Below, in pieces: positions 8,597 to 64,000 of a stretch of DNA of 64,000 nt. The notes beneath the pieces were generated by a model that saw only the letters and a list, made by a program, of their open reading frames with translations, was not told the origin of the DNA and ran no database searches. The number at the start of each line of letters is the position of its first letter. The stretch's first letter is position 1. The stretch is from Ilex aquifolium (lineage: Eukaryota > Streptophyta > Magnoliopsida > Aquifoliales > Aquifoliaceae): positions 25,190,744 through 25,254,743 of the forward strand of contig OX637393.1 in NCBI GenBank assembly GCA_951799425.1, written 5' to 3'. The position numbers and the translations under genes were made by a program.

Positions 8597-8599
8597 GCT

Positions 8600-16244: not shown

Positions 16245-18116
16245 TGATGAGCACGTAATATTGCATATTTAACCGCTTCATTACATGCATTTTAACTCAA
16301 CTTTGCATTTAATTACTTAGAGTTAGTCGAATTTATAAATAATGTTAAAATTTTGATGTTGTAGGTAATCATAGGGTAAATGATGGCTTTCAGAACCTTG
16401 CAACTAAGCGTCGATGAGTGGTGAAGGGATGAACACATTACATGAGGATTAGGAGGCTTTAAAGTGAAATAAATCAAGGAGGTAGTGGTACTTGGTATCA
16501 TAGGTACCGGTATCTAAGCTTACTGGAATTTTGGTACCAGCACTATTTGGTAGCAGTACCTCGGTTTTCCCCATTTTTGACCATTATCTACTTCGAATCT
16601 GAAAATTTCATAACATTAAAGTTGTAGATCTGGATGTTCTCTGTCTTGTGTCAAAATTTCAGCTCAATCGGACGGTGGGATCAAAAGTTATGACAAATTT
16701 ACGAAAGTTGGTCCTGAGCTAGCACCCCCCTTATGACCTACCGATAGAAGGAAGCCAAAACCTACCGGTATGTTTTTTCATAGACCTACCGGTAGGTTTT
16801 ACCCATAAACGCCAGAAAGTTGCAATCTCTTCTCCAACTGCTCTGTGGGCCCACTTCTGCTTCTCCCACACATACCCTGACATATTCTACATACAAGCAT
16901 GCCTCCCTACACCTAGAATCTGACTTTGGAAGAAAGAGCATGGAAGAGGAAGAGAGAAAAAGAGGGAGGCATGGTGGGTTACAGGCATGGCCTGTCCTTG
17001 CTTGTGTAAGTGTCCAACCCATTCTCCATGCTTGGATGTCAGCTCTCACAAACCATGGAGGGGGTATGGACGAATTTGGACCAAGTCTTACACTATAATT
17101 CAGATTTTACAAGCTTTTAAAAAGGGAGGCTACCTAAGCTTAGGAGTAGTATAGAGAGAGAAGCTCCCAAGGAAGAAGATGAAGTTCTAGAGAGAGAAAG
17201 TTAGGTTTTTACATTTTCTTCTCCATTTCAGTTGTAGTAAGCTTTAAATCACTTGCAATCTTTACTTCTTGCACTTTAATCTCCTTTATTTCAAGTGTAT
17301 TCAAGTTTAACTACATCTTCTAGCATTTCAAGTTTTATATTTGGGTATTTGCCTCCAATATTTGTATTTTGACTATGAATGTCATTTCTCTTGTAGCTTC
17401 ACTCTTTTCTTGCATTAATACAAGTTCCATGTTTCATTTCTTCACCATGTCTTTTTACATTGTGTATGTCTTTGAATCCATTATGAGTAGATAAGTTTTA
17501 GTTGGCTAATCCAAGGGAGATTTCCTCTTGGGTATGCTATATCAACTCTCTTTCATTCCTCCTCGTAGTGTAAGGTGTTTGATTTGACTAGGTTGAGTGT
17601 GGACGTGGTTGTGAGCTCTTGATACACCGTAGACTTGTCACGGGGTATGCTTGAGCCTACACCTCCACATTAGTCCCTCACTTCCTACGAATCAATTAAG
17701 CACCGAGACACCATTGGTAGAATGTTTTGAGTTGATTTGGCATTCCCATTAGAATGACCTCTTCAGATTAGCCAACCTTGTTTTCATTGCATTTTTATCA
17801 AAAACTCCACTCACCAAAACACACAACTACAAGATCTTACACTTTTTCATTTCTTTTCAAATCACCCTTCGTAAACACTTGACCTTTCCTTCCCTGAGGA
17901 GATAACCTTGGAATACCCATTCTAAGTAAAAAACGATATTACAAGTCTCTCTACGCATGGGGAGCACTTTTGCACACATACACACATTTTCATTCACACA
18001 TAAGTTTTCCCATTTCTAGCATCGAACCCGAGGGAGAGTGACACTCACCTACTCATATAAGCCATAAACACACAACCGGGTGCATGTTCGGAGACTAGGG
18101 TGAACTGCATCTAGCA
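16245..18116 (+). mobile_element. Solo LTR, family A, in the PMD ORF
   Basis: 1,872 bp, from TGATGAGCACGTAATATTGC to GAACTGCATCTAGCA, flanked by a perfect 5-bp target duplication ataat (16240-16244 and 18117-18121). The same family appears at 41790-43121, 51271-53176 and 60698-61536 on minus, and a fragment at 18593-19195. No internal region or second LTR is present, so it formed by recombination between LTRs. It contains the palindrome cluster at 16759-16798 and a shared 90-bp block just before it. Confidence 0.92.
16759..16798. repeat. Palindrome cluster: AACCTACCGGTAGGTT type
   Basis: AACCTACCGGTATGTT (16759-16774) and GACCTACCGGTAGGTT (16783-16798), plus a weaker copy near 16735. Family A solo LTR. 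Confidence 0.85.
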
Positions 18117-26712: not shown

Positions 26713-26742
26713 CGTCCGGACGATGGTGATGGCGTCCGGACG
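26713..26742. repeat. Palindrome cluster: CGTCCGGACG type
   Basis: Two perfect copies, 26713-26722 and 26733-26742, 50 bp before the TATA box of the Athila-like LTR. Confidence 0.9.
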
Positions 26743-26790: not shown

Positions 26791-26806
26791 GGCCTATAAA
26801 TAGGCC
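26791..26806 (+). promoter_or_regulatory. TATA box of the Athila-like LTR
   Basis: GGCCTATAAATAGGCC is a near-perfect palindrome holding TATAAATA. It lies 50-80 bp downstream of the CGTCCGGACG pair and would be the RNA polymerase II start region of the element. Confidence 0.6.
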
Positions 26807-27302: not shown

Positions 27303-29721
27303 TGTAACGCCCCAATTTCCGGGGGTCCTATATTAACTGTTGACCACCCGTCAACCCGCGGAAATACCCGTGGATGTCACTCAACCTAACACCACGGTAG
27401 TAGCATCCCCTTAACCGGGATCTTAATTCACAATTGTTAACCGGATTCGATTATTCATTTGGGTTCAACCAATATTCAATATACCATGATTTATACTCCA
27501 TTATAGTCCATTTACATCATTGAAGAGAAGGAAAACATAGATTGAAAATAGGGCGAATCAGTGTGAAAATCTGAAAATTTTGAAGAGAGTACCGGTACCA
27601 TTCAGTACCGGTACCCGGTACCGGTACTGTCAACCCACTGGAAAGGGGGTACCGGTACCCAGTACCGGTACTCTCTGCCCAGTTTTGCCTTTTTCCTCCA
27701 TTTTTCATTTCCAATCCATTCCAAACCTTCCCCAACTCATCCAATACCAGAGTAATAGGATTTTCTATATAACATGCTTTATAAAAATTCCATTACAACA
27801 ATTCCCAAAATTTATACATCAAAAATGGAAATTTTGGTAAAAACTTTACAACTCAAAATTAAGGCCACAAGTCGGCCCCCTTCATGCTTGATGCTCCCCA
27901 AGTGAGCCATCCACCGGTGCAAACCCAACACCTGAAATGTTTTTCCCACAAAGGGTGAGCCACGCTCAATAGGGTATCTCCTAGTGAGGCTACTCCCCAA
28001 CCTATATGCATATGAAATGTTCACATGCCACAAAACAACAATTCATAACATCCCAAGCAAGGAAATATATTCAATGATGGAATTTGCAATGCCATGCTAT
28101 GGAATGAGGTGAGACCCACTCATGCATATCAACCGAGCCCTTCCCGGCTCCTCTACTCATGCAAGTGCCAATGTGTACCAATCCGTCATTGATGTTGCAC
28201 ATCAAATGACCTTTCATTCTAGGGTCTATATAGGGGTGGATGTTCATAGACTCACACCAAAGGTCACCCAACCTACACGGAATTCATGGACTTCCACCAA
28301 CGGTTCCGCGTACACCGACACACTTTATGGGCTCTTATACCAACGGAGTGCGTATCCAATCACCGGGTCTCTCACCCGAGGGATAGTCTAGCCCTTCTTG
28401 CTACCCCAACCCTATCAACATATAAACCATGCGACTCGACTAGGTCTTCGACCCATATTACCCGAGCCCACTCGTCATCCACCACGCGTGGTGAAGACAA
28501 CCACCATGCACACACACCCACTAAATGCGATGTTCCCGTGCATATGCAATGTGATGCTCCATTGCAACAATATTACCATGTTCAATATGCTATGAGGAAC
28601 ACATGAACATTCCAATCACATTTTACATATTTCATGGCAAAATTACATCATAAGCATATAATTTCCATAATTCTCTACAATGTCAATATATTATAACATG
28701 TATACATATACCAACATTATCTTGAATAACACCCAAGCATGTCATCACAAAATCAAGTAATAACACACTTTAATTCTCATGGCATAATATAAGCACATAG
28801 CATGCCCACAATTCACATAATCCAAGAATTTCATTGGGTCAATCCCATATACCTAATTCTAGAAATTTTATTTAAAAATTTCTAATTACCAATCCAATTA
28901 GAATTGACCTTTACCCATTTCAATACCCATTTCAACACATTACCAACAATAGGCAAGAGATATACAATCTATCATCCTACCCATTTCATAAAAACATCCT
29001 AGGTTTGGAATAAACCTTAGTAGGAGGGAACCCTACCTCTTGTAGCGTGTAGAATCGTCGTGGGAAGCTCCTAGAACTCAAAGCAAGCTTGAATCCTCCA
29101 CTTCCAACTTTTCGGCCTCCCAACGTTCGGTGAAAGCCATCGTTTTTGGTACCCACGCGTAGCCCTCGACGCGTAGAGCAACTCTTGTTCTTGGCCCGAG
29201 TCGATTTGAGCGCTAGAACGGAGTAGATCGTAGAGAGAAGGTGGAGTGTTTCTCTCTTTTCCCTCTCTTCTCAATCGGCTGAACAATCGGCTGACACAAT
29301 GGGGAAAAATCTAATTTTTCCCCCTATTTATATTTTAGAATACTTGGCCCACAATTGGCCACACGTCCTATTTAATTTCGGGTCCGTTTTAATCCCGAAA
29401 CGACTAAATTTCGCTCCGGTTCAAGTTCGAATTATTTTTATTTCAAATTGCCTCTAATATTTCCCCAAACTTTAGAATTTTATAAAAATTTCGTGTACGG
29501 GGTCACCCGAGGCCCGTTCGTCTCGTAAAACGCGAAAAATCCGACTATCTCAGAATTCAATGAAATTTGACAGGGTAACTAGATTTCGCGAGACGAATCC
29601 AACGGTGATGTCCGTTTCATCATCCGAGCTCTAGAAAATTTCAGGTTTACAACCTGTACCATAGTGGCAATTTACCATTTTGCCCTTTTTCACAAAAGTT
29701 CAAATTTTCTCGGGTTTTACA
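27303..29721 (+). mobile_element. Solo LTR in the Athila 5' LTR
   Basis: 2,419 bp from TGTAACGCCCCAATTTCC to GGGTTTTACA, flanked by catac (27298-27302 and 29722-29726). The uninterrupted target is seen at the matching place in the 3' LTR (near 33168), which confirms the insertion. A second member begins at 62171 and a truncated inverted piece is at 32447-32808. It bears five perfect GTACCGGTAC motifs. Confidence 0.93.
27589..27671. repeat. Palindrome cluster: GTACCGGTAC, five perfect copies
   Basis: Copies at 27589, 27605, 27618, 27649 and 27662, each 10 bp. Solo LTR 27303-29721, about 290-370 bp from its start. Confidence 0.95.
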
Positions 29722-41789: not shown

Positions 41790-43121
41790 TGCTTGATGCG
41801 GTTCACCCTAATCTCCAAAAACGAACCCGGATTGTGTGTAAATGGCTTATACGAAGTGGTAAAAGCAAGAACACACATAATGTAAAGAGACATAATGTAA
41901 GTATAAAGAGACATGGTAGTGAAATTGAACATGGAACTTGTATTAATGCAAGAAAAAGTTTAAACTACAAGAACAAGATCATTCATACCCAAAAACAAAG
42001 CTTGAAGAGAAAACCCAATTGCGGAAATGGAAATACAAGAGCATTAAGATAAACTTGATTACAACTTGAAATAAATGAGTTTAAAGTGAAACAGGGAATG
42101 ATTACAAGTAAAATAAAGCTTACTACAATGAAAATGGTGAAGGAAATGTAAAAACCCAACTTTCTCTCTCTATAACTTCATTTTCTACCTTGGAGCTTCT
42201 CTCTCTAAAAGCATGTAAAACTGAATAATGGTGTAAGACTTGGTCAAAATTCATCCATCCTCCTCCCTTAGCCTGTGTGGACTGAGTTGCAATCATTGGG
42301 GAGAGGTTCGACACTTAAACAAGCAAAAAAATGCCAAGCATGCTCCTCCCATGCTTTCCCAACCACCCTTCTTCTCACTCTTGCTTCCCTTCTCTCTCTC
42401 ACTTGAAATCTGAATTCTTGTGTTAGCAGAGCATCATGGGGTGTCATATATGTTAGGGTATGGTTTGGATGACAAGAGAAGGGCCCCCGGAGTAGGTGGA
42501 GTTGTGTGGGGAAGTGTCTGGGCAAATATGGGCAAAACTTATCGATAGAACGTCAAAAACCTACTGGTAGGTATTTTCCAGTAGGGTCTTCTGCCGGTAG
42601 GTTTTGCATGTCTTCTATTAGTAGGTCTTGCATGTCTTCTACCGGTTGGTCTTTTCATAAATTTGTCATAACTTTCGATTCTAAAGTCCGATTGAGCTGA
42701 AATTTTGACACAAGATAGAAGACATCTAGATCTACAACTTTCATGTTTTTTACCCTTTTAGATTTGAAGTGGATCATGGTAAAAAATGCAAAATACCGGG
42801 ATACTACTACAAATTGGTACGGGTGCCGATACCAAAATTTCGGTAAGCTTAGATACCGGTAATTATGATACCAAGTACCGCTTAATCCTTGATTTATTTC
42901 AGTTTAAAGTGTCTCAATCCTCATGTAATGTGTCCATCTCTTCACCACTCATCCACACTTAGTTGCAGGATTCCGAAAGCCATCATTTACCCTATGATTA
43001 CCTACAACATCAAAATTTTCACATTATTCATAAATTCGACTAACTCTAAGTAATTAAATGCAAAGTTGAGTTAAAATGCATGTAATGAGGTTGTTAAATA
43101 TGCAATATTATGTGCTCATCA
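41790..43121 (-). mobile_element. Family A LTR 1 (outer 3' LTR)
   Basis: 1,332 bp, ends TGCTTGATGCGG... and ...GTGCTCATCA on plus. It is shorter than its relatives (1,872-1,906 bp) because about 600 bp of the R-U5 part are missing near 41850. A polypurine tract (43122-43133) adjoins it on the internal side. Confidence 0.85.
42557..42650. repeat. Palindrome cluster in family A LTR 1
   Basis: CCTACTGGTAGG, TGCCGGTAGG and TACCGGTTGG-like motifs, decayed copies of CCTACCGGTAGG. Confidence 0.75.
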
Positions 43122-44060: not shown

Positions 44061-45866
44061 TCATTCATCCCTTTTGGGTTTCATCACCACATTTTCCTTT
44101 CTTCATGATTAATCATAGTCAGTCTCAGAACAACCAAGGTGCGGTAATTGTAATCATTTTGCACTGGCTTGGTAAAACATGTGTCAATGAAAGGAATTTT
44201 CAATTAAGGCTCAATCATGGCACTAGGGATAGATTTTTCACAAGAAAAAGTCTAAGGCTCAAAGCAAATCAAAGATGACCTAAGATCATCTCTAAATAAG
44301 CATGGGGAGGCGTGTTAGCATTTCAAGACAAAATCAATCAACTTTCCACATGCACTCTAACCAAAGCAAGCATAATGAGATTATTGAACATATTTTTGAA
44401 TTTGAAAAATTGTTCCTTTGTGTAAATGCAAGTTCCCTCAAAAAAGGATTGACACTAAAGCTCACACGCGTACTTATGTCATCTCCACTATGCATGTCAG
44501 GCTCTAAAATGTGGATCCAATTCGTAAATTGCCGAAATTACACATTCAAGGTGCACTATAGTTGAATTTGAAAGAAAACACATATGTGATGCTCCGGCAT
44601 AGGATAAACTTCTATGATGTACTCATGTATTCAAAGTTCAAAATGAAGATCAAACTATCACAAATCTCATAGCAATTAGTATAGGGGAATATAATTCAAT
44701 ATTAGATATTTTCCGCGAAAAATATCCAAAATTTCAAAATTTTTTTTTTTTTCAAAATTGTAACATTTTCAACTATTCTATACAAAACGTGGTGGAACAT
44801 GTAAATGGTGCACCTCACCCCCCAACTTGAACCATGCATTGTCCTCAATGCACAAGGAATCATGCAATGAGAAAAACGAAAGTAACATGGGAAATAAGAT
44901 ACTCCCATTTTTTTTTTCTTTTTTCCCCCTTTTTTTTTTTAGAAAATGAAACACAAAAAAGCTTGTTTACACCCCCAACTTAGACTCGAACATGATACTA
45001 AATAAGATTTGTTACGATAAAGCTCAAAATGAATTGAGTCCAAATTACGGAGAGATAAACAACTTCATGCTAAAATCTACACTACGATATCATGAAAATA
45101 AAAATATAAGAATAAAATAAATCTAACTACTTTGTACATGAAAACAAAACAAAAAGGACTCATGTCAATCTAGCTTCAATTCAGATATGAGCTTGTGCCC
45201 ATTGATTTTTTTTATTTAATTTTTTTTTGGTGTATAAATGCCTTTCCTAATCAATCTATCTAACAATACAAAAGATAATGATTAAAAATTCTCAACAAAA
45301 CAGAGGTGCGCACAAGTTTATGCAATTCCAACAATGGAGTACACAATTTCTCTTTGTAAATTTCTACACTCAACTCCATTTCAATGCCCTCCCCAAGTTG
45401 AAAATTATGAATCTCAACACCACACTTTGATGGCAAATTGATCTTAGGCTTATTAGCCTCATGTGAGATAATAACTTCATTAAATTTTTCACAATCAAGA
45501 GTGGTGGGAGATTCAAAATCAATTTGTGTAAACCCCCACATTCTTGTCTTTATATAATAATGTAATGATTTTGAAATGCTCATATTTGTAGTGAGGGAAG
45601 CATGAACTATATAGGTTGTAAAAGTAGAAGTTAGGAAGTGTTGTGGAGTTAAAATAAAATTTTTTTAGAACTTGGGTAGAAAGAATTTTAGACACTGCCT
45701 TAGTATTTGGACCATAACTTTTTACCTTGATGTCCATTGGATCTGAAATTTGGACAGTAGACACTAGACTTCCAGGGCTACAAAAGATTTTTCATGAAAA
45801 TTTTCCAAATCAACCTCTAAATAGGTGAAAACTTCACTGGAAGTTTCAGCAAAAACTTGGAGTCCA

Positions 45867-46025
45867 TTCGAACGTGAATAGACGTTCGAACGACAGTTCA
45901 TCGCAGTACTTTGTGTTTGATAGAGCTCTAATGGAAGAGTAAAAATACTGGGAGCAACTAACGTTCGAACACCAAAATGACGTTCGAACGTGAAACAGTA
46001 AATTGTAATACTGACGTTCGAACGT
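45867..46025. repeat. Palindrome cluster: ACGTTCGAACGT type
   Basis: Perfect 12-mers at 45980-45991 and 46014-46025; partial ones at 45867, 45892 and 45961. Just upstream of the TATA box at 46077. Confidence 0.92.
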
Positions 46026-46076
46026 GAATTACGAATTTGGGTTTCAGAATCGCGCACAAGAGACCATTTCTTCCAC

Positions 46077-46084
46077 TATAAATA
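46077..46084 (+). promoter_or_regulatory. TATA box of the 45527 LTR
   Basis: TATAAATA lies about 50 bp after the last ACGTTCGAACGT motif. Confidence 0.55.
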
Positions 46085-47454
46085 CTTAAGGACACCTCCA
46101 TTAGTCCCATTTCAACATTTCTAGCCCTAGAGAGGCTTAGGGAGGACTAATGAAGGGAAAAAACAAGAGATCAAAGTGTTGATTCAAGTTGGGAAAGATC
46201 AAATCTTCAAGTTTTCACACAAAACCAAGAAAGCAAGGTAGGGGTTCTTCCTATTTTTGTTCATTGAGGTTAGAGTTTATATATATGTATGGTTTGACTC
46301 TTAATCCTATATATATGCTATGAAATCATTATTTCTTGATACTCTTGCAAATATTACCATCTTTTGAAGGAAGCTATGGTTGGATAGTCATGAAATCTCT
46401 TCTTCTTGTCTTGAAAACCCTAGTTTTCAAGAAAAATGGGTTTTTCTCTCAATATTCCTTTGTGCATGATTTTAAAACTCTAGTGCTTTGTATTAAACAA
46501 TAAAATGGTATTTGTGATGATCTCTTGCATATTTTCTTAAATTGTTCTATTGGAATAATACATGTGAACTTTGAGAATTTTTGGATTTGCTTGTGATTTG
46601 AGGAAATGGGTTTGTATTGTATCTCTTGTGGATGTTTGGATGACCATAGGTGGTCGTTGACCGAGTATCGTAGAGTGGGTTAGATGCGTTTCTTACTCTG
46701 TGTGGGTTTGAAGGTTCCCTATCACTCGTAGTGGAGTTGGTGTCTTGCGAGGACCAAACTACTATTCGTTCATGTGGTATCGAGGCTAAGGATTAGTATA
46801 CTATTCCTGGTTTAGATCGTCCTTGCCAATGCGTCGGTATACGCCCTTCTAAAGTTGTATATCCTTGTGAGGATTGGGTATGTGTGTATGGGCTAGGATA
46901 TTCTCGATGTGTTTATTCATGCGATGTCATACATCATACCTGAGATACAAGTTGTGTTTTGAGATACATGGTGGGAAATGGTACAAATTGTGGGTTATTG
47001 TGTATTGTTGTGGAAATGGTTTATTACAAGAACTTGTTGGAAATGGTTTTTGGTTGGAAATGGCTTATCGTTGGGAATTGGTTTTACTTCTTCATTTAAT
47101 TTATTGTTGTTGCGTAAACTAGAGATCCGTTGAAATGTCACTGTTTTATGTCAAAAGTTATATATGATATTTGTGAAATGAGACTGACCTGTTTTATATG
47201 TTTTCAAAACTTGTTCGAATTTGGGAGGATTTTCCTACAGAGCTTAGTGCTCACCCCCTACAAACAACATTCTTTTCAGATTTTGGTTTTGAGGAAGAGC
47301 TCGGAGTGGACGAGTAGGTACTTTGGGAAGCTCAAGTGGATGGGCATGTGGATCCGGAGGGGGATGTCTAGAATGGTTCTTGTTATGTTCTAGACTAGGA
47401 GATTTATTTTGAGATAATGTTCATGTAAATATTTTCCTTATTCCGCTGCGAGAT

Positions 47455-47615
47455 AATAGTTTGGCATATTCTTTTGGGCGTAATTGCCATAGTTTGGCAT
47501 ATTCTTTTGGGGGTAATTGCCATAGTTTGGCATATTCTTTTGGATGTAATTGCCATAGTTTGACATATTCTTTTGGATGTAATGGTCATGGTTTGGCAAA
47601 GTCTTTTGAATGATG
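47455..47615. repeat. 36-bp tandem repeat, four to five copies
   Basis: Units such as CATAGTTTGGCATATTCTTT followed by TGGATGTAATTGC repeat head to tail, with small changes. It lies in the 3' part of the 45527 LTR and is absent from the related LTRs at 54672 and 57700. Confidence 0.9.
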
Positions 47616-47953
47616 TTGTAGATATTATGGATGATGAATGAAATTTTCTTTACTTATGGAAATTATTAGTTGCTCTCATGATGTGAATTGTTTTAGATAG
47701 TAATGCCTGATTAGCACAAAAACATGACATATTTTGGATGCTAATATGTCGTTTTATACTTGTTTCTGTCATGAAATTGGGGAGAAATTCGTTTAAACTT
47801 CATTTTGATGGAGTTTTGTGTAAATGCAGGAAAAATGATGTAAATAGCTTGAGTTAAGCCTCCATTGAAGTGGTTGAAGTCAATGAAGATGAAGGGGTAA
47901 CTTAAAGGAAGGCTTGGAGGGTGAAGAGATCAAGAAAATGCAAATTGGTTGAA

Positions 47954-48182
47954 AACCTTCTGGAAGGTTTGCCTTGGATTTCTTTTTCACTGCCAAAACC
48001 TTCCGAAAGGTTTTGCCTACTGGAGTGAAACCTTCCAGAAAGTTTTGCCTACTGGAGTGAAACCTTCCGGAAGGTTTTGTCTACTGGAATGAACCTTTCG
48101 GAAGGTTTTGCCTATTAACTGCTTCATTTAACTGTTCATGCACAAACCTTCCGGAAGGTTTCTGTCGACCTTCTGGAAGGTT
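47954..48182. repeat. Palindrome cluster: AACCTTCCGGAAGGTT, seven copies
   Basis: Perfect 16-mers at 48061-48076 and 48145-48160; near-perfect at 47954, 47997, 48029, 48092 and 48167. Several are separated by a TTGCCTACTGGAGTGA spacer. Confidence 0.93.
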
Positions 48183-48541
48183 CTGCAACTCAAGCTCTGC
48201 CATTTGGGGGTCCCACTTACATTTCTCCAACAGATCCCCTGACATCCCCTGCACGTCTAGGAGCCTCCTTTCACCTCAACTTGGACTTGGATGGATTTTG
48301 CATTAATGAGGAGGAGAGAGAAGAGGCATGGCAAGAGAGAAAGACTAGGCTTGTCCTAGCCTACACCATCCCATCCCTTTCATCCCCCATGATGGGAATC
48401 ACATCACATAGCATTGGGGAGGGCTCCATGGACGTTCTTGGGCAAGCTCCACCACTATTGTTCAGCATTAGCTAGGATTACATTGAATATAGAGAGAGAG
48501 AGTGCAAGGAAGAAGATGAATAGTGCTAGAGAGAGAAGTTA

Positions 48542-49049
48542 GGCTGTGTTTGGTTTGCATCTGCAAAACTGTTTTTTGTTTTCAAAATTTTAAAAACACC
48601 CAAATCCTGTTTGTTTAGCATTTTTGGTCTCAAAATTTTCGGAAAAAAAGAGATTTGAGTCAAAGAAACAGAAAACAAGTCTAGTTTGTTTTCGGAGTTT
48701 TCTTTGAAAATTTTGAAAACAAGGAGAACAATTTTGGACTTTAATGAGGTCTGCCCTTCGAGTCTCCTTAACAGCAAATTTCTTCATTCCTTTTTTTTTT
48801 TACTTCTTCCTCTCTCTCCTAATATATAATATATATATATAATAGATATTATAATATAATATATTATATAATATTCTATTATATTATATAATATTATAAT
48901 ATAATATATAAATATTATATTATATAATATTATTAAAATTCGTATATATTATATAATATATTTATATATATACCAATTTATATGTATAAATATATGTATA
49001 AATATATATATTATATAAATATTATATTATATAATATTATTAAAATTCG

Positions 49050-49129
<80 letters not shown>

Positions 49130-49711
49130 TATATATAAATTGGTATATATATTTATTTATTTATAAATTCTTACATATAAATTCGTAGATATATTTATAC
49201 ATATATTATATTATATAATATAATATATTTATACATATGTATAAATATATTATATAATATAATATATTTATACATATATATATATTTATACATATATATA
49301 TATTTATAAATATATATATATATATATTTATACCAATTTATATGTATAAATATACATATATTTATATTTATATTTATAAATATATATATATATATATATA
49401 TATTTATATTTATACCAATTTATATATGTATATATATTTATACATATATATGTATAAATATATAATAGAATATAATATTATAATATATAAATAACTTTCT
49501 TATATTTTTTTATTAATGTTTGAAATACTGTTCAAACATATATTTAGGCTGTCCAAACAGGTTTTACTATTTTCTATTCTGTAAAACTGTTTTTGAAATC
49601 ATCTAACCAAACAAGTTTTTTATCTCAAAAAATATCAAAACCATTTTCTCAAAACTCTTCTCAAAAACTGTTTTCGGATACCTGTTTTTGAAACGCATAC
49701 CAAACAGGCCC
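48542..49711. mobile_element. PIF/Harbinger-like MITE with an AT expansion
   Basis: Ends GGCTGTGTTTGGTTTGC and GCATACCAAACAGGCCC are inverted, with TTA on both sides (48539-48541 and 49712-49714). The related LTR at 17200 lacks it, confirming the site. The core from 48815 to 49500 is almost pure A and T with (TA)n runs. Internal arms (CTCAAAATTTTCGG-like and CTCAAAACTCTTCTC) are mirrored. Confidence 0.88.
48815..49500. repeat. TA-rich microsatellite and minisatellite block
   Basis: About 690 bp of ATATAT, TATAAATATAT and related strings. A pure (AT)n run lies around 49050-49130. The string CCAATTTATATGTATAAAT recurs several times. Confidence 0.95.
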
Positions 49712-51270
49712 TTAATGTTTTTCCATTTTCTTTCCATAATAAGACCTTTCTAAGCTTTGTTTGAAGTCTTGAATGCCATTTATTTCAAGTTGCTTTTAAA
49801 TTTAATCTTCTATTCAAGCTTTCACCATTAATGCATTCATGTTCTTCATTTTCTTAGTTTTAAAATGGGTATTAAATGCATTCACTTTTAGTTTATGTTT
49901 TCTTGCATTAACTTAGCTAAAATCTGCATTGCTCTACAATGTCTTTCCATTACATTAGTGTCTTTCCTTTAAGCATGAGTAGCTAAGTCTTTAAGTTAGC
50001 TAATCCAAGGGAGACCTCCTCTTGGGTATGCCATTTCAACTCATCTTCTTTCCTCCCCTCGGTGTACGATGGTTCGGTTTGACTGGGTTGAGTGTGGACA
50101 CGGTTGTGAGTCTTTGATATCCCGTAGACTTGTCACGGGTTATGCTTGGATCCTCACTTCCATCTCGTCCCGAGCTTCCCACGAATCAATCATTCATCTA
50201 TGCACCATTAGAGGAAGGTTTCGAGTTGACTTGGCATTCCCATTAGAGTGAACCTTTTGGATTAGCCAACAATTGTTTCCCATTTCATTTTCATCACAAT
50301 ACAACTCACAAACCAAAATTTAACAACAAAAGATTTTACACTTTGTTTTTACCACAATCACCTTCAAGACGATTCACCTCCTTCCCTAAAGAGACGACCT
50401 TGGAGTATTCTCCAAGTAAAACACGACACACAAAAGTCTTCTTGCGCTTGTAAAGCATTTTTGTACACACACACTCATTTTACACTTCATTTATCCACCA
50501 TTCCGTTGTCCTTTCTTTTGACATCATTCGGAGGGAGAGTGACACTCCCCAACACATATACACCATATACACATTCGAGGGTGATGTCCGGAGGTTAGGA
50601 TATACTACAATGGAAACCATCAAGTAATGCCATCTAAGGGAGATCTTGGGGCGTCACAATTTGCATACCATAGAAATAATCATCCTCAATAATTTGACTA
50701 TGCTCAAGATGTTGTTCTTCACAATTAGTAATTATGACATTAGTCAATGCAATAAGGTCATCTCTAATTTCAGGAAATTGTTGGGATACTTGGGCATTGA
50801 CTTCCATTTGGTATAGCATAAACTCGTAAAGAGTATTTTCCAATTTTTTTTTTCAGTTGAGTCCTCATATGTTGGATAGTAGCAACATTCATTTGGTGGT
50901 GTGAGATCGGATGAAAAATTATAAGGTTCGTTCTCCCAACCTTAACTTGGATAACTCGTTGCAACATAATGGTCGGAGTAAAAATTTTCGAGGGCCAATA
51001 TTGAAATTGATCCTCTACATGCCAAGTCTTGAACCATAAAATTTAATGGGCACTCACTAGTGATGTGCTCATACTCATTACAAATCTCACACACAATTTC
51101 AAAATTTTGGGCATTTAACACATTTTCATAAAAATTAGGAAACATAACATAAAACACAAACTACAACAAACTATTTATAATTGAAACGACATACCTTGGC
51201 CCGTGATGAAAATCACGAGACTTACCTATGCCGTCCCAAATCACCTTCGAATATATGACGCTTAGCCTTC

Positions 51271-53176
51271 TGCTTGATCGCGTTTACCCTAATCTCCGAA
51301 CATGAACCCTCGAATGTATAAATGGCTTATGTGTGTACGGAAGTGTCATTCTCCCTCGGTTTCGATGCAAGAAATAGGAAAAACGTGTGTGGATAAACAA
51401 AAACGTGAGTGTGTGCAAAACTGCTCCCCAAGCGTAGAGAGACTTGCGATGTCGTGTTTTACTTAGAATGGGTATTCCAACGTCGTCTCCTCAGGGAAGG
51501 TTGGTCAAATTATGGTGAATGTGATTTTGTAAAAATGGAAAAATGTAAAATCTTGTGAATTGGTGTTTGGGTGAGTGAAGATTGCTGGTAAAATGCAATA
51601 AAAAATAAGGTTGGCTAATCCGAAGAGGTAATTCCAATAGGAATACCAAATCAACTCAATTCATTCAACCAATGGTGCCTAGGTGCTTCATTGATTCTTA
51701 GGAAGTGAGGGACTAATGTGGAGTGTAGGCTCAAACATACCCCATGAAAAGTCTACGGTGTATCAAGAGCTCACAACCACGTCCGTACTCAACCTAGTCA
51801 AACCAAGCACTTTACACTACGAGGTAGAATGGAGAAAAGTTGATTTAACATACCCAAGAGGAAGTTCCCCTTGAATTAGCCAACAAAAAGCTTAGATACT
51901 CATGTTTAAAGTAAAAACATTCATAATGTAAAGAGACATGTAGATGAAATGGACTGAAAATATAGATGAAATGAAGCTTAGAACTTATATTAATGCTAGG
52001 AGAAGGTAAACTACAAAGGAGAATTCATTTCATACCAAAAATGGAAAGCTTAAAGACAAAACCCAGGTGAAAATATAAAAGTGCAAGAACATTGAATTAA
52101 ACTTAATTACACTTGAAATAAAGGAGATTACAATGCAATAAATGAAGATTACTAGTGAAATAAAACTTACTACAAGTGAAATGGTGAAGGAAATGCAAAA
52201 ATCTAACTTTCTCTCTCTAAAACTTCTCTACACTACTCCTAAGCTTAGGTAGCCTCCTCCCAAAATATTGTGTAAAAGTATGAATATATGGTGTAAGACT
52301 TGCTGAATTTCGTCAATGAGGCTCTCCTAGCCTATGTGTGCAGGCCTCCCATCAATGGGAGGTGAGATGATGCATTGGACAGGCTAGGACAAGCATAGCC
52401 TACACCCACCTTGCCTCCTTCCTTCTCTCTCCTCCTTTCCCATTCTCCATCTTCCAAAGCTGACTTTAGGGTGCAGGTAGGCATGTATATATGTAGAATA
52501 TGTCAGGGGATGTGTGCGAGAATCATATGTGGGACCCCCAAGCAAGTGGAGATTGAGATGAAGAATTTGGAGCTTTTAAGCAAAACCTATCGGTAGGTTG
52601 ATGACAAAACCTACCGGTAGGTTTTTGTTCAGTAGGCAAAACCTACGAGTAGGTTTTGGTTTCCTTCTACTGGTAGGTCGTAAATGGGATGGTAGCTCAG
52701 GACCAATTTTCGTAAATTTATCATAACTTTTGATCCAACCATCTGATTGAGCTGCAATTTTGACACAATACATAGGCCATCATGATCTACAACTTTCATG
52801 TTTTTCACTTTTTCCGATTCGAAGTGGATCATGTTCAAAAATGAAAAATACCGGGGTACTACTACAAATTGGTGCAGGTGCCGGTACCAAAATTCCGGTG
52901 GGCTTAGATACCGGTACCTAGGATACCAAGTACCGCTTCCTCCTTGATTTATTTCGATTTAAAGCCTCTCAATCCTCATGAAATGTGTCAATCTCTTCAC
53001 CACTCATCCACACTTAGTTGCAGGGTTCCGAAAGCCATCATTTACCCTATGATTACCTACAACATCAAAATTTCCACATTATTCATAAATTCGACTAACT
53101 CTAAGTAATTAAATGCAAAGTTAAGTTAAAATGCATGTAATGAGGCTGTTAAATATGCAATATTACGTGCTCATCA
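51271..53176 (-). mobile_element. Family A LTR 2 (shared middle LTR)
   Basis: 1,906 bp with TG/CA ends. It serves as 5' LTR of the unit to its left and 3' LTR of the unit to its right. The polypurine tract is at 53177. It contains palindromes at 52583-52679 and a TATA-less promoter region. It is near full length compared with the solo LTR at 16245. Confidence 0.88.
52583..52679. repeat. Palindrome cluster in family A LTR 2
   Basis: AACCTACCGGTAGGTT is perfect at 52608-52623, with variants at 52583, 52639 and 52664. Confidence 0.85.
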
Positions 53177-55183
53177 CACCCCCCAACTTAAGCTTTGCTA
53201 GTCCCTAGAAAACTAAATGTAAAAATTAAGCAAACAAAAATAAACCTATACTAGTTCTGCTACTTCATTTAGCATATGCAACAGGCCTTTAAACCCCTAG
53301 GTGATCTCTAGTGGATGAGTTTTGTCTCGTGAAGGTTTCTAGTGATGGTACCTACAAACTTGTTTTCCTTATATCCAACATTTGAAACATATACCCTTGT
53401 CCTAACTAGCACTGAGCTGTCAACAATAGTTTTGTCCAATGCACACTAACTAATCACACATGAATCACATCATAGCCTTAAATGCTATTCTAGAGTATTC
53501 ACCTACACATTTCCTTTAAAAATTCATGTGTGTGTAAAATGAATATGTAATTTAAACCTTTACTCAATAGAATCCACATTCATTTAGCTATCCAAATTCA
53601 GTTTTGATGCAATTCTCACCAAGGGTTTCTCTAAAAAAAAAATGAATAACTCTATGATTATCCTAACATGCTCTCCATGTGTATATGTGAGATAGAATAT
53701 TGTGCACAAACCAAAATGCTCACATATAATCCAAAAATGATGTACATGCATAACAATTGAAATGACCTTGGCATAATCTCATGAATGAAATGTTAGGGCA
53801 CTAGATAGCAAAACCAACTTTTCTTTCCATTTAAAGTGTGCTCTCACCATGCTTCCTCTAGATCATTTAGGGATTTCATGGGTTGTAAGGAGGCCTTGGG
53901 GTGATATTAAGGGCAAGTGAAACGAAGGGTAGAGGAAGACAAAAAGGGTTATTCCGAGGGCATGACCTTTATTATAAAAAAATCTCTTTTTTGTGGAATT
54001 TTTAGCTTTACACCTTCATTTCATTATGTCTCTTTTTTCCTTCTTTCCTCAACATTTTTCTTCTCTTTTTCTTTTCTTTTCATTTCTTTTCTTTTTCAAC
54101 CCCCTTTTTCTCCATTTTCTAGACTTTCTCTCTTCTTTTTGATTCAATGTCAATTATACCTTTTGGGTTTCCTCACCACATTTTCCTTTCTTCATGATTA
54201 ATCACAGTCAGTCTCGGAACAACCAAGGAGTGGTAATTGTAATCATTTTGCACTGGCTTGGTAAAGCATGTGGCAAGGAAACGAATTTTCAATTAAGGCT
54301 TAATCGCGACACTAGGGATAGATTTTTCACAAGAAAAAGGCTAAGGCTCAAAGCAAATCAAAGATGACCTAAGATCATCTCTAAATAAGCATGGGGAGAC
54401 ATGTTAGAATTTCAAGACAAAGCCAGTCAACTTTCCACATGCACTCTAACCAAAGCAAGCATAATGAGATTATTGAACAGATTTTTGAATTTGAAAAATT
54501 GTTCCTTTGTGTAAATGCAAGTTCCCTCCAAAAAGGATTGGCACTAAAGCTCACACAGGTACTTATTTCATCTCCATTATGCATGCCAGACTCTAAAATG
54601 TCGATCCAATTCGTAAATTACCGAAATTACACATTCAAGGTGCACTATGGTTGAGTTCGAAAGAAAGCACATGTAACACCCCGCATTTTCTTTTATATAT
54701 GTATATAGATATATAGTAAATAATTTTTGTAAAAATGTGGATATGTGTAATGATGTAAGAATGAACTATATAGATTGTAATAGTAGGAGAAATGCTAGAG
54801 ATGCATATTGATTGGGAAGTTTGAGTTTCAAAGACGTTTAAACTTGGAAAGGGTGATTAGATGAATTTCTAAATATTTTTAGGTCAAAATAAGGTGTCCA
54901 TTGAATCCGGAAGGTCGAACAACCTTGGGAGAGGTAATATGAGGTGTATTGGAAGTTAGAAAGTATTTTGGAGTAAAGACACATTTAGAGAGAGTTGGGT
55001 AAAAATGGATCTTGGACACTGCTTAGTATTTTGGCCATAACTTTTTATCCTTATGTCCAATTGATTTAAAAATTTTACAGTAGATAGTATACATCTGGGA
55101 ATACAAAAGTGTATCTCATGAAAATTTTCCAATTCAACCTCTAAATGGGTCAAAATTGCCCTGGGAGTCGAAATAGCCGAAGT

Positions 55184-55266
55184 GTACCGGAACACAGTAC
55201 CGGTATGGTACCGTACCAGTACTCCCGAACTAGTAGCTAAACCGTACCGGTACAGCGTACCGGTAC
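55184..55266. repeat. Palindrome cluster: GTACCGGTAC type
   Basis: Two perfect copies near 55244 and 55257 and several variants (GTACCGGAAC, GTACCGGTAT, GTACCAGTAC). Solo LTR 54672-56842. Confidence 0.9.
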
Positions 55267-56053
55267 GCCCGAAGTTTGGCACAGTAAAAGTCAGGATTTT
55301 GGTGTTTTAAAACACCCTTTTAAGCCTCATTTGACCCATTCTTCCATCCCATTCTCACCCCAAACATCTTAGAGCCCTAAGAGAAGAGAAAATGAGAGAA
55401 AAACACAAAGATCTTGAGAGAGTTACCCCTTATAGAGATCAAAACCGAAATTCCTCAAGAACACCATTTTTCTACTCTCTTCTTCTACACTTTCACTACA
55501 CCCTTACCCACACCTCTTGGAATCCTAGAGAGAGTCTTAGAAAAGAATAAAGAAGGAGAAAACACAAGATCAAAAGGGAAAAACAAAGGATTTAAGAGTG
55601 ATTCAAGATCAAACCCTAGATTTTCAAGAACATCAAGGTAGGGGTTTTCTCTCACTCACTTACATTGAGGCTAGGGTATTTATATATGTATGCTTTGGCT
55701 ATCAATGGTATATATATATGCTATGGAATCATCCTCTCTTAGGCTTTTTGGCAAAGATTACATGTTTTGAACAAAGTTAGGGTTTAATACCCATGAAATC
55801 TCTTCTCTAGTTTTAAAACCCTCATTTTTGGAGAGTGATGTATTTCCTTCTTAAATGCTTTCTTTATTATGGATTTTCGAAACCTTAGTGCTTTGTGTTG
55901 GGTAGAAAAATGATGTTATTGTGATCTCATGTATTTTTCTTTGTTGGTTGTGGAATTGTTACATGATATATTTTGGGGATTTTGGATAGATGCTTGTAAA
56001 TTGAGATAAATGTTAGAATTTTATGCTTGGCTGGGTTGTGGTGATGCACATGA

Positions 56054-56274
56054 GTGAGAGGTTCCTTGTAAGGATGCTCACCCCTTCTCAAGAGGTTCCC
56101 GGTAAGGATGCTTGAGAAATAAGTATGTGATAGTGAGAGGTTCCTTGTAAGGATGCTCACCCCTACCCAAGAGGTTCCCGGTAACGATGCTTGGAAACAA
56201 TGTAGTGATTGGTGAGAGGTTCCATGTAAGGATGCTCATCCATTCTCAAGAGGTTCCCGGTAAGGATGCTTGAG
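56054..56274 (+). repeat. Tandem hairpin-forming repeat, six units
   Basis: Six units of about 28-30 nt share a core AGGTTCC..GTAAGGATG. Flanking arms are complementary within each unit: GTGAG/CTCAC (56054, 56133 and, weaker, 56212), CTCAAG/CTTGAG (56087, 56245) and CCAAG/CTTGG (56167). They alternate in a larger period of roughly 80 bp. It lies in the R-U5 part of the 54672 LTR. Confidence 0.85.
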
Positions 56275-57699
56275 AATCAAATGAGACCTAAAAGGGGGTG
56301 GAGGTTACCACAAAGTATGCCACCTACCGAAAGAATTGTTGGGGATTGTTTATGGCAATTAATGGTGATTATTTGTATGTGGTGCTCGTTTATTCATTTA
56401 AGTAATGTTTTTACATAAACTTGAGATCCTTTTTAAATGTCACTGCTTTATTTCAAATTATGTATCTATGTTATGTTAAAAATGAGATCGACCGCTTTAA
56501 ATGTTTTTCTAAACCTTGTATGAGTTTGAGAGAATTTTTCTACAGAGCTTCGTGCTCACCCCCTACCACTAACATTTTTCAGATTACCCGCTTGAGGAGG
56601 ATGTAAGGGTCGAGGGGCCTGCTACTTGGGAGACTCCACTTGACGGGAGTGTGGATCCCGAGGTGGACGCATAGAGCGACCTCCTTTCCTTTTATACTAG
56701 ACTAGGACATTCTTTTGGATCACTTTGTAAATATTTGTGGATGACAAATGGAGTCTCGTTTCTTAAAGAATTATATTAGTGCTCTCATGATATGAATGTT
56801 TTAGAATATAATGTCGTCCAGGGTGTGTTTTGGGGCGTTACAGCACATATGTGATACTTCAGCATAGGATAAAAATCTATGATGTGCTCATGTAGTTCAA
56901 TATTAGATAATTTTCGTGAAAAATATCTAAAATTCCAAAAATATATTTTTTTTCAAAATTGTAACATTTTCAACTATTCTATACAAAACGTGGTGGAACA
57001 TGTAAATGGTGCACCTCACCCCCCAACTTGAACCATGCATTGTCCTCAATGCACAAGGAATCATGCAATGAGAAAAACGAAAGTAACATGGGAAATAAGA
57101 TACTCCCATTTTTTTTTTCCCCTTTTTTTTTTTTTTAGAAAATGAAACACAAAAAAGCTTGTTTACACCCCCAACTTAGACTCGAATATGATACTAAATA
57201 AGATTTGTTACGATGAAGCTCAAAATGAATTGAGTCCAAATTACGGAGAGGTAAACAACTTCATGCTAAAATCTACACTACGACATCATGAAAATAAAAA
57301 TATAAGAATAAAATAAATCTAAATATTTTGTACATGAAAACAAAACAAAAAGGACTCATGTCAATCTAGCTTCAATTCAGATATGAGCTTGTGCCCATTG
57401 ATTTTTTTTTATTTAATTTTTTTTGGTGTATAAATGTCTTTCCTAATCAATCTATCTAACAATACAAAAGATAATGATTAAAACTTCTCAACAAAACAGA
57501 GGTGCGCACAAGTTTATGCAATTCCAACAATGGAGTATACAATTTCTCTTTGTAAATTTCTACACTCGATGCCATTTCAATGCCCCCCCCCAAGTTGAAA
57601 ATTGTGAATCTCAACACCACACTTTGATGGCAAATTGATCTTAGACTTATTAGCCTCATGTGAGATAATAACTTCATTAAATTTTTCACAATCAAGAGT

Positions 57700-60066
57700 T
57701 GTAACGCCCCCAAAACCACCCTGGACGGCATTACATACTAAAACCATTTACATCATGAGAGCACTAAAATAAACCCTTCATAAATAAGACTTCATAAAAA
57801 TCATTTATAACATTTACCTCATTATCCCAAAAGAATATGCCATCTTTGGCCTTTACATTTCAAAAATCAACTAATGTAGCGCAGCGAAAATAATAAAAGA
57901 AAACTAGACTTCACAAGGTTCAAAATGAATATCCTAGTCTAGAACAAAAGTAAGCGACATCCCTAGAGGTCCCACTCGGGATCCAAGTATCCCTCTAGTG
58001 AAGCCTCTCCATGGCCCAGCTCATTAGCACCGAGCTCATCCCCTGGCACCAAATCTAAAAAATGTTCAACTGTAGGGGGTGAGCACGAAGCTCTGTAGAA
58101 AAATTCTTCCAAACTTGAACAAGGTTTAGAAAACAGATAAAAACCGGTCGGTATTATTTCGTAAATAGCATATATCAATTTTGAAGGAAAAACGGGACAT
58201 TTTAAATAGATCTCAAGTTTAAGCCGTAACAATAATCAAGTGAAAGGTTAAGGCAAATTTCATAACAATATACCATTTCTAACTTTTAGCCATTTAGGAA
58301 GGGCGCCCTCCGATGCATTGTCCCATACCAATGCACCGGCCAAGGCGGTCCAACCCATCATCCCATTTATATTGGTTCATCCTCGTACCATGTATGTTGA
58401 TTGCTTCTCATGAATCTACCCAACGATTATACCTAGTCCACCAATCACAATCACAATCACAAACACTTTAGGAAAGGGCGTCTACCATCCCAATGGCAGT
58501 GACGAGTCCCTTCCCAGGAAAAGTATACCATCCCTTGTTCGAACTCCAGTGAACGATAGTGGTCGCATTACCAAATGACAACCCACCACAAGTGTTAGGA
58601 AACCGTCTCACCCTCACTGGGATAGACTAACCACTAACACTCTACGGCATCTCTCGAAGGCAATCCAAGTCCATCACAACAACCATACCAATGAGGAAAC
58701 CAAAATATTCTCAATTCACCAACAATTCCAAATAACTACAAAATCCACAATTTCTCATTTTACAAGCATATCTCAAAATCCCCAAATTAAGCATGTGACA
58801 TTTTCAATAACCAACCAAGAAAAATGCAAGAGATCACAACAATATCATTTTATTATTCAACACAAAACACTATGATTTTGAAATCAAGAATAAAGGAAGA
58901 TTTCAAGAGGAAAACCCATCACTCTTGAAAACTAGGGTTTTTCAAACAAAAGAGGGATTTCATGGGTATACAACCCTAACTTTGTGTAAAACATGTTAAT
59001 AATTGCAAGAGAACCAAGAAACAATGAACCCATAGCAAATACATATGATTAGGAGTCAAAACATATATATATAACAACCCTAACATCAATGAACAAGAAT
59101 GGAAGAAAACCCCTACCTTGGTATTCTTGAAAATCTAGGGTTTGATCTTGAATCACTCTTAAATCCTTTGTTTTTCCCTTTTGATCTTGTGTTTTCTCCT
59201 TCTTTATTCTTTTCTAAGACTCTCTCTAGGATTCCCAGAGGTGTGGGTAAGGGTGTGGTGAAAATGTAGAAGAAGAGAGTAGAAGAATGATGTTCTTGAG
59301 GAATTTCGGTTTTGATCTCTATAAGGGATAACTCTCTCAAGATCTTTGTTTTTTTCTCTCATTTTCTCTTCTCTTAGGGCTCTAAGATGTTTGGGGTGAG
59401 AGTGGGATGGAAGAATGGGTCAAATGAGGCTAAAAAGGGTGTTTTAAAACACCAAAATCCCGACTTTTACTATGCCAAACTTCGGGCGTACCGGTACGCT
59501 GTACCGGTACGGTTTAGCTATTGGTTCGGGCGTACTGGTACTGTGTTCCGGTACACTTCGGCTACTTCGACTCCCAGGGCAGTTTTGACCCATTTAGAGG
59601 TTGAATTGGAAAATTTTCATGAGATACACTTTTGTATTCCCAGATGTATACTAGCTACTGTAAAATTTTCAGATCAATTGGACATAAGGATAAAAAGTTA
59701 TGGCCAAAATACTAAGCAGTGTCCAAGATCCATTTTTACCCAACTCTCTCTAAATGTGTCTTTACTCCAAAATACTTCATAACTTCCAATACACCTCATA
59801 TTACCTCTCCCAAGGTTGTTCGACCTTCCGGATTCAATGGACACCTTATTTTGAGCTAAAAATATTTAGAAATTCATCTAATCACCCTTTCCAAGTTTAA
59901 ACGTCTTTGAAACTCAAACTTCCCAATCAATATGCATCTCTAGCATTTCTCCTACTATTACAATCTATATAGTTCATTCTTACATCATTACACATATCCA
60001 CATTTTTACAATAATTATTTACTATATATCTATATACATATATAAAAGAAAATACGGGGTGTTACA
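57700..60066 (-). mobile_element. Solo LTR (TGTAACACCCCG type), inverted
   Basis: 2,367 bp, flanked by agagt (57695-57699 and 60067-60071). On minus it starts TGTAACACCCCGTATTTTC. It is a close relative of 54672-56842 in the opposite direction, 857 bp away. Palindromes GTACCGGTAC at 59488-59510. Confidence 0.95.
59488..59560. repeat. Palindrome cluster: GTACCGGTAC type
   Basis: Perfect at 59488-59497 and 59501-59510, variants to 59560. Mirror counterpart of 55184-55266. Confidence 0.9.
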
Positions 60067-61953: not shown

Positions 61954-62170
61954 TACTGATTTTGGGGGCTGAAAACATAAGGAGAAGACCAAGGATTGAT
62001 AGAAAATTGAAGGCAAGAATCGAAGGAACCGACACGAAGAAAATCGGGATTGAAGGCTAGAGAGGAGTTGGAGATTGCAACTAAGTTTTCATTCCTTTTC
62101 TCTTACTTTTACTTATTGATTTTCTAAGATGTTGTTTAATTTGAGAAGGATGTTTCTCAATTACATTATG

Positions 62171-64000
62171 TGACGCCCCAATTTTCGGGGGTCCTATATT
62201 ACCCGATGACCAACCGTCAACCCGCGGAAGTATCCGTGAATGCCCCTTAAACCCGACACCACGTCAAATAACATTCCTTTAACCGAAATCATAACCCACA
62301 ACTGTAAATTTAAATCAATTATTCATTTGGTCTAACCAAGACCCAGCGCACTTTGATTTACACTCCATTATAGTCCATTTACATCATTGGAGGAAGGGAA
62401 AACATAGATTGAAAATAGGACAAAGCAATTTAAAAATCAGAAATTTTTGGAGAGAGTATCGGTACACAGTACCGGTACCATACCATACCGGTACGCAGTA
62501 CCGGTACCCCGATGTACCGGTATACAGTACCGGTACTGTTAACCTATTGGAAAGGGGGTACCGGTACATATTGTACCGGTACTCTCTGCCCAGTTTTGCC
62601 ATTTTCAACCAATTTTCATTTCCAATCCATTCAAAACCTTTCCCAATTCATCAAATACATGTTTGACAAGGATTTCCATATAAAACATGGTTTGTACAAG
62701 TTCTATTACAATTAATTCCATATATTTACATATCAAAATGGAACTCTTACAAAAGCTTTACAAAATAACCATAAAAGCCACAAGCCGGCTTTCTTCAACC
62801 TTGAGGCTCGAAATGGGAGCCGTCCGTCGGTGTAAACCCCGCACCTGAAATGTTTTTCCCACAAAGGGTGAGCCACACTCAATAGGGTATCTCCTAATGA
62901 GGCTACTCCCCAACCTAAATGCATATGAAATGTTCACATGCCAAATTCAACAATTCATAACATTCCAAGCAAGGAAACATATTCAATGATGGAATTTGCA
63001 ATGCCATGCTATGGAATGAGGTGAGACCCACTCATGCATATCAACCAAGCCCTTCCCGGCTCCTCTACACATGCAAGTGCCAATGTGTACCAATCCGTCA
63101 TTTATGTTGCACATCAAATGACATTTCATTCTAGGGTCTTTATAGGGGTGGATGTTCATGGACTCACACCAAAGGTCACTCGACCTACACGGAATTCATG
63201 GACTTCCACCAACGGTTTCGTGTACACCGACACACTTTATGGGCTCATATACCAACGGAGTGCGTATCCAATCACCGGGTCTCTCACCCGAGGGATAGTC
63301 TAGCCCTTCTTGCTACCCCAACCCTAACAACCATGCAAACCGTGAGACTCGACTAGGTCATCAACCCGTATCACCCGAGTCCACTCGTCGTCCACCAAAC
63401 TTGGTGAAGACAACCACCATGCCCACACACCCACTAAATGCGATGTTCCCGTGCATATGCAATGTGATGTCCCATTGCAACAATAATACAATGTTCAATA
63501 TGGTATGAGTAACATATGAACATTTACAACACATTTCACACACTTTATGGCAAAATCATATCATAAGCATATAATTTCCATAAAACAATTTCCAAGCATG
63601 TTGTCACATAATCATGTTATCAACATCTTAAATTCTTCAAGGCATATACATAAACACATAACATGCCCACAATTCCATATAACCCAAGATTCACATTGGA
63701 TTAATTTCATGTACCCAATTCTAGAAATCTCATTTAGAAACTTCTAATTACCAATCCAATTAGAATTGATCTTTACCCAATTCCATAACCATTTCACCCA
63801 TATCAAACAAATAGGCAAGAGATACACATCCTATCATCCTACCCATTTCATTAAAACATTCTAGGTTTGGAATAAACCTTCGTAGGAAGAAACCCTACCT
63901 CTTGAAGCGTAAACCCACTTGGTAGACACCTTCAAGAATCTCTATCTTGCCCAAAACCCTTGATTCCTCCAAGCTCGATTTTGGAACTTCGGTGAAATTC
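62171..64000 (+). mobile_element. LTR of the 27303 type, running off the window
   Basis: Starts TGACGCCCCAATTTTCGGGGG and aligns with 27303-29721 through to the window end. The left neighbour is ttatg. Seven GTACCGGTAC-like motifs lie at 62469-62582. Coding-looking frames near 63034 are shared by both copies but are non-coding LTR sequence. Confidence 0.85.
62469..62582. repeat. Palindrome cluster: GTACCGGTAC, up to seven copies
   Basis: Perfect at 62469, 62498, 62527, 62558 and 62573; variants at 62485 and 62514. Confidence 0.93.

Follow-up and report, generated by a model that had tools for sequence, protein, structure and literature searches.

The stretch of Ilex aquifolium DNA analysed here, 64,000 nucleotides of contig OX637393.1 (positions 25,190,744 to 25,254,743; hereafter the window) from an 800 Mb assembly, holds the long terminal repeats (LTRs) of several groups of retroelements, which we call A, B1, B2, C and D. 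In each of these groups, and in an LTR-like promoter region at 26713, we observe a cluster of short palindromes, and every array motif has CG at its centre. Units within one LTR agree with each other, the motif changes between related LTRs whose flanking sequence still aligns, and motif type follows the trees drawn from those flanks. This pattern likely speaks to the replacement of whole arrays.

Palindrome arrays at the locus

The window contains 57 palindromes of at least 10 bp with at least three G or C in the central 10 bases, a count that excludes AT-rich palindromes. We scored a palindrome as clustered when a like palindrome lies within 500 bp; 21 of the 57 are clustered, and all 21 are CG-centred. 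Simulated sequence gave a mean of 0.03 clustered palindromes and a maximum of 2 over 60 runs. A first-order Markov simulation at equal stringency gave means of 0.12-0.56 motif matches per 64 kb, with maxima of 1-4 in 50 runs. The clusters that had been predicted from the letters of the window alone are located where they were said to be and stand far above the Markov simulations, and a chance origin is rejected by both simulations.

The B2 LTR, which starts at 45527, carries its array of CGTTCGAACG/ACGTTCGAACGT units at 45864-46025 on the forward strand, and the TATA word CTATAAATA lies 3' of it at 46076-46084 on the same strand. The B1 LTR that starts at 54672 has a forward-strand GTACCGGTAC array at 55184-55266, and a second, inverted B1 LTR (5' end at 60066) has a GTACCGGTAC-like array at 59486-59554 on the reverse strand. 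These two LTRs form an inverted pair (54672-60066) around about 1.2 kb, and between them the segment 56890-57702 is 95% like 44689-45505, the sequence directly before the B2 LTR.

Group A has three copies in the window. The LTR with its 5' end at 53178 carries two reverse-strand arrays, c2 with four AACCTACCGGTAGGTT-like units at 52584-52677 and c1, which is GTACCGGTAC-like, at 52878-52920. The LTR that starts at 16243 has a AACCTACCGGTAGGTT-like c2 array at 16759-16798 on the forward strand, and the one with its 5' end at 43123 has a decayed c2 array at 42558-42649 on the reverse strand. The original prediction that A copies carry AACCTACCGGTAGGTT thus stands for AACCTACCGGTAGGTT-like units, yet the sole perfect unit in the window is at 52608 and the copy at 41790 has only decayed units. 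The LTR that starts at 47708 had been taken for an A-type LTR. It belongs to a separate family, D, whose alignment to A is concentrated in the 3' part, at about 72%, and is weak near the array; its own array of AACCTTCCGGAAGGTT, of motif type CCTTCCGGAAGG, occupies 47954-48182 on the forward strand.

The C repeats at 27303-29048 and 62169-63910, whose first letters are TGTRACGCCCC, bear forward-strand arrays of five GTACCGGTAC units (27589-27671) and eight GTACCGGTAC-like units (62456-62582). The LTR-like promoter region has two forward-strand CGTCCGGACG units at 26713-26742, with CTATAAATA at 26794-26802.

Group B arrays differ between aligned flanks

Relatives of A, D, B1 and B2 were drawn from the 40 best matches per search and are biased to close relatives of the window copies. 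For A all 38 non-window matches were fetched; the D set is 20 of its 39, and B1 and B2 each contribute 30 of their 40. The B1 and B2 window LTRs, thought at first to align from end to end, align by BLAST in four separate blocks at 71-77%, and the arrays lie between two of these blocks.

Across 80 B copies there are four motifs, GTACCGGTAC, CGTTCGAACG, GCTACCGGTAGC and CGTCCGGACG. GTAC units are present in every one of the 30 fetched B1 copies, and a pair of CGTTCGAACG units in none. At least two CGTTCGAACG units, at no more than two mismatches, are found in all 30 fetched B2 copies; two of these copies also contain a pair of weak, inexact GTAC-like words. A conserved 34-base left anchor occurs at 103 places in the genome, and a non-random choice of 20 of them (from 100 of the 103, spread over contigs and with variant anchors added) yielded 16 GTACCGGTAC arrays, two GCTACCGGTAGC arrays (loci L153 and L154) and two CGTCCGGACG arrays (L164 and L165). 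At one mismatch or less, no B row out of the 80 combines units of two motifs.

In an alignment of 16 B rows the left flank matches across motif types but the arrays do not, and whole arrays differ between types, spacers included. The right flank aligns across motif types too, with CTATAAATAC present in many rows. On a tree of the B flanks (80 rows, 337 columns) the four motif types require three changes, the minimum possible, as against 27.7 for shuffled labels; each motif therefore marks one branch. TATA words were scanned for in the B1 and B2 copies; one was detected in 27 of the 30 B2 copies, in each of which it lies 61-63 bp downstream of the start of the last unit. Separately, locus L107 contains three more CGTCCGGACG palindromes at 2976-3066, in a stretch unmatched in the related L105 and L106.

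Groups A and D: a motif switch and a mosaic tract in A

Group A arrays are built of CCTACCGGTAGG (TACC) or CCTTCCGGAAGG (TTCC). The 41 A rows comprise the 38 fetched copies and the three window copies, and L139, which has no flank anchor, was dropped from the tree. The 40 usable rows divide into 27 TACC, nine TTCC and four mixed, the mixed rows having TTCC as the first unit and TACC in later units; three TACC rows have one asymmetric unit each. By eye, 19 of the 20 fetched D copies have TTCC arrays, and L098 is without an array in its stretch. With two-motif rows at zero in B and 36 of 40 A rows free of any other-type unit, the uniformity within LTRs that had been proposed is borne out.

On a tree of the A flanks (353 columns) the three array states take three changes, compared with 12.0 after shuffling, and TACC is divided from the rest by one change (support 84/79), on a branch with a length of roughly 0.003 changes per column. 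Both half-sites changed along such short branches, so independent point mutations likely do little to explain the switch. The GTAC-like c1 array also became TTCC once, in four of the 40 rows. Motif type thus tracks the flank trees in both A and B. The original prediction had asked whether motifs group by phylogeny or switch repeatedly, and had named gradual change by point mutation along the LTR tree as evidence against itself; agreement with the tree is half of that pattern. Repeated flip-flop between motifs is unsupported, since the flank trees need only three changes in A and three in B.

The sequence beyond the A array is mosaic. In the 59 bp that follow it, the nine TTCC copies have best identities of 0.77-0.87 with D, as against 0.70-0.73 with TACC-A; over the 85 bp beyond, the order is reversed, at 0.82-0.88 with TACC-A and 0.58-0.64 with D. 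This comparison covers 51 of 61 rows, the 10 rows without an anchor (eight TACC-A and two D) being left out. Two of the mixed copies are also nearer to D than to TACC-A over the 59 bp (0.80 against 0.77 in L066, 0.80 against 0.70 in L084). A tract that is first D-like and then A-like suggests a block swap by recombination. The idea of whole-array replacement thus gains from this tract, and from copies of B and C that keep both flanks while the array differs.

Group C and motifs common to unrelated groups

Group C arrays (three copies) consist of GTACCGGTAC or CCTACCGGTAGG. The copy that differs is L003, one of four loci sampled from the 1723 places of the TACC 16-mer. On either side of its array it resembles the C repeats of the window (about 70-74% in the adjoining sequence), yet the array itself is CCTACCGGTAGG, and with the units counted in, its array region is 80% identical to an A LTR over 71 bp.

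Motifs also recur across groups: GTACCGGTAC is common to B and C, CTACCGGTAG to A, B and C, and CGTCCGGACG to B and the 26713 region. Between groups, BLAST at E 1e-6 finds no similarity among the A, B and C LTRs of the window and this region. Motifs common to such dissimilar groups suggest factors that serve unrelated families jointly and that may be host-encoded or supplied in trans by an element. Among the papers listed by literature searches for a host transcription factor, none was evidently about these motifs. LBD factors are conceivable binders, although we make no such claim.

Identity of the elements

A domain search covered 10 open reading frame (ORF) pieces from three elements. L108, a B2 element, encodes gag, reverse transcriptase, RNase H and SH3_Tf2-1; its reverse transcriptase-RNase H ORF ends with an integrase zinc-binding domain and is followed by SH3_Tf2-1, which is the gypsy order. 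L105, a B1 element with a short internal region, has zinc-knuckle, protease and SH3_Tf2-1 pieces. From the domain content of these two elements, B is Ty3/gypsy and perhaps chromovirus-like, Tekay being the lineage compared, with SH3_Tf2-1 found and no chromodomain in the five B pieces searched.

The D element L109 has Retrotrans_gag, rve and, in a sense ORF piece at 8083-8796, Transposase_32 (E 1.8e-25), with an RNase H-like stretch before the integrase by eye. D is probably Athila-like, the combination of a gypsy gag-pol with a Transposase_32 ORF being seen in one element, L109; the available text of a sunflower study likewise describes an Athila ORF partly similar to Transposase_32 (PF20167) (PMC11728184). 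L109 also has a second array, of six AACCTTCCGGAAGGTT-like TTCC units (7435-7599), which precedes the Transposase_32 ORF piece by about 0.5 kb, and possible autoregulation comes to mind. Elsewhere in the window, two long ORFs at 424-2555 look by eye like a FAR1/MULE-type protein, and ORF pieces at 6826-9584 look, again by eye, Ty1/copia-like (zinc knuckle, integrase, reverse transcriptase).

Genome-wide counts and unit composition

In a genome-wide 16-mer count, perfect AACCTACCGGTAGGTT is found at 1723 places and perfect AACCTTCCGGAAGGTT at 7077, and the reversed control words at none. The asymmetric hybrid AACCTTCCGGTAGGTT is found at 74 places (39 forward, 35 reverse), a count of one intermediate from which rarity relative to neutral decay cannot be read. 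A census of the B motifs gave 5,283 places at up to three mismatches, and a further search gave 204. Across 14,020 bp of A flank, no unit was found at up to three mismatches.

Half-site letters are symmetric in 239 of the 249 units of the fetched A and D copies (TA in 144, AT in 95) and otherwise in 10. In A and D units the central CG, kept at 0.79-0.91, is among the more frequently changed positions, as is its G in B1 units (0.80); this is not so in B2 units, where the CG is kept at 0.94-0.95. Changes at this CG in A, D and B1 are mostly C to T or G to A, and outer unit positions vary equally or more in several sets.

The word TACTGG is also present in the array regions, 33 times in the 27 TACC-A copies, 8 in the 13 TTCC or mixed A copies, 19 in 36 A c1 arrays and 27 in the 20 D copies. 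In B it occurs 49 times in 46 GTAC copies, 44 times in 30 TCGA copies and not in the two TCCG copies; it was absent from the 26713 region and from the flanks of 143 copies. TACTGG may be a second conserved box, or it may be partly decayed TACCGG, an origin less likely within TCGA or TTCC arrays.

Discussion

The reading that we favor, at a probability of about 0.62, is that the arrays are exchangeable promoter-proximal sites for dimeric DNA-binding factors and are swapped as blocks. Each cluster would then be an enhancer array in the U3 region of an LTR, consisting of several CG-centred palindromes of 10-16 bp, the shape expected for the site of a homodimeric factor, and would act from a position just ahead of any visible TATA box. 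Such an array might behave as a cassette that is at times replaced en bloc by the array of another LTR through recombination between elements, either by template switching in the reverse transcription of co-packaged RNAs or by ectopic conversion, and that could gain or lose units by local duplication. A swap would change which factor drives the element, and its success might be selected through transcription or through escape from silencing. A successful swap would found a subfamily, and for this reason the motif would be expected to follow the LTR tree. Group A is most simply explained if a D-like LTR supplied the replacing block and partial exchanges followed.

Several observations weigh against this reading. 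The A tree is poorly resolved, with five of 37 inner branches starred, 19 open and a bootstrap that has not settled. The boundary between the 59 and 85 bp segments was picked post hoc, with the sequences already seen, and two mixed copies are not closer to D over the first segment (D 0.78 and TACC-A 0.78 in L070, 0.75 and 0.80 in L140). The donor of the switched A array is D-like and not D itself. In B, GCTACCGGTAGC and CGTCCGGACG are each known from two copies, and the scanned TATA words were found in none of 30 B1 copies. The switch in C is seen in the single copy L003, and when its units are masked the best score of its spacers against A is 30, a value matched by four of 300 shuffles, compared with 25 against a GTAC array of its own group.

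The motif might instead change in place, by point mutation followed by homogenisation among the units through slippage or unequal exchange, with spacers retained. Many spacers do look alike by eye between the TTCC and TACC arrays of A and D, and unit number differs among copies. We nonetheless regard change in place as quite improbable: the branch to the TTCC and mixed copies is very short yet both half-sites altered, hybrids are rare beside the two perfect words, the D-like tract runs 59 bp past the A array, and entire B arrays differ with their spacers. It is less credible still that the palindromes act as RNA or DNA hairpins, for small-RNA silencing or transcript shape, with sequence free as long as dyad symmetry is kept. 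Symmetry is indeed maintained across motif changes, and the palindromes of maize Sireviruses are described in the available portions of two papers as small-RNA hotspots (PMC5311732, PMC10760457). However, hairpins would not need one sequence for all units of an LTR, a CG centre in every motif, a few motifs that recur in unrelated groups, or the fixed spacing to the TATA word in B2. Chance palindromes or an assembly artefact, for which we found no supporting point, can be practically dismissed given the excess over simulations and thousands of genomic copies against no reversed controls.

The main rival to exchangeable factor sites is that the elements themselves encode a protein, anti-silencing or autoregulatory, which targets the arrays and evolves in step with its motif, on the model of VANC in VANDAL elements; in D the candidate would be a Transposase_32-type protein acting on TTCCGGAA arrays. 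This fits the placement of the D motif ahead of the Transposase_32 ORF piece in L109, and VANC motif arrays, in the accessible text, diverge together (PMC5735166). We consider it unlikely. The second array is known from one element, Transposase_32 had no match in the five B pieces searched and is only a candidate DNA binder, and one motif in unrelated families would require action in trans. A broader version of block exchange, which we hold tentatively and think somewhat doubtful, is a shared address code, in which a small vocabulary of CG-centred palindromes would each be read by its own dimeric factor, some perhaps encoded by the elements themselves, as with an Athila-like protein whose ORF has the same sites ahead of it, and unrelated families would trade cassettes, thereby escaping silencing or competition and launching subfamilies.

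Comparison with known systems

The original prediction held that no system of this kind had been described, which does not stand: there are close precedents in the repeated motifs of Sireviruses, the U3 subfamilies of Tnt1 and the arrays of VANDAL/VANC. The comparisons that follow draw on the accessible parts of the papers cited. In VANDAL/VANC anti-silencing, dense arrays of short motifs lie in non-coding regions of the transposable element, motif type differs by subgroup and units diverge together (PMC5735166, PMC10398659). VANDAL, however, is a DNA transposon, its motif YAGTATTAY is non-palindromic with co-oriented units, and its binding protein has been demonstrated, whereas here there is a candidate D ORF only and the hosts have reverse transcriptase and gag (B2) or gag and integrase (D). 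In Arabidopsis, new Athila LTR lineages arose by recombination between distant families, as described through gag, pol and env (PMC2410132), whereas the piece exchanged here is a short LTR array. Other gypsy elements likewise have an extra ORF, and Retand has tandem repeats between pol and the 3' LTR (PMC11963269, PMC7264820, PMC11728184). The accessible text of these papers contains no motif switching.

Palindromes in maize Sirevirus LTRs were reportedly also treated by Bousios et al. in 2016. The repeated-motif (RM) boxes of Sireviruses, which are Ty1/copia elements, are palindromic and present in many copies with one motif per element, and lie in the upper half of the LTR shortly before the TATA box (Bousios et al. 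2010, PMC2829016). Extra copies precede the env ORF, motifs differ between elements, the three unambiguous even-length perfect palindromes of Table 3 are CG-centred, and the motif is called Sirevirus-specific (PMC2829016). Our arrays share the repetition of palindromes within one LTR, the CG centre and, in B2, the position shortly 5' of the TATA word. The second array of L109, seen in this single D element before an ORF downstream of pol, may be a counterpart of the boxes before env. They differ in having mostly 2-8 units per LTR, against the minimum of eight per element in that paper, and in the array swaps between close LTRs, which the accessible text of PMC2829016 does not contain. Because B and D are Ty3/gypsy, their arrays are not members of the Sirevirus RM system, and Sirevirus-like palindromic arrays are extended here to Ty3/gypsy elements.

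Tnt1 and Retrolyc1 are copia elements. Related members differ chiefly in the U3 regulatory region, which defines their subfamilies, and the Tnt1 literature does not settle what drives this differentiation, or whether it is a way of evading host control or of adapting (PMC1838419, in its accessible text). We see a similar contrast in A, B and C, where a U3 stretch differs between LTRs whose flanks are alike, whereas CG-centred palindromes common to unrelated families, as found here, are absent from the accessible part of PMC1838419. Among the papers listed by our literature searches, in which subscription papers were thinly covered, none described arrays of this kind, or swaps of them, in gypsy LTRs. 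Three features look new, namely the gypsy setting, the sharing of motifs between unrelated families and the visible swaps. In these holly elements the variation in U3 comes down to a single short palindrome whose flanks are matched and which exists in thousands of copies, so that DNA affinity purification sequencing (DAP-seq), methylation and small-RNA data could tell which factor reads each motif, and whether a swap altered activity or silencing.

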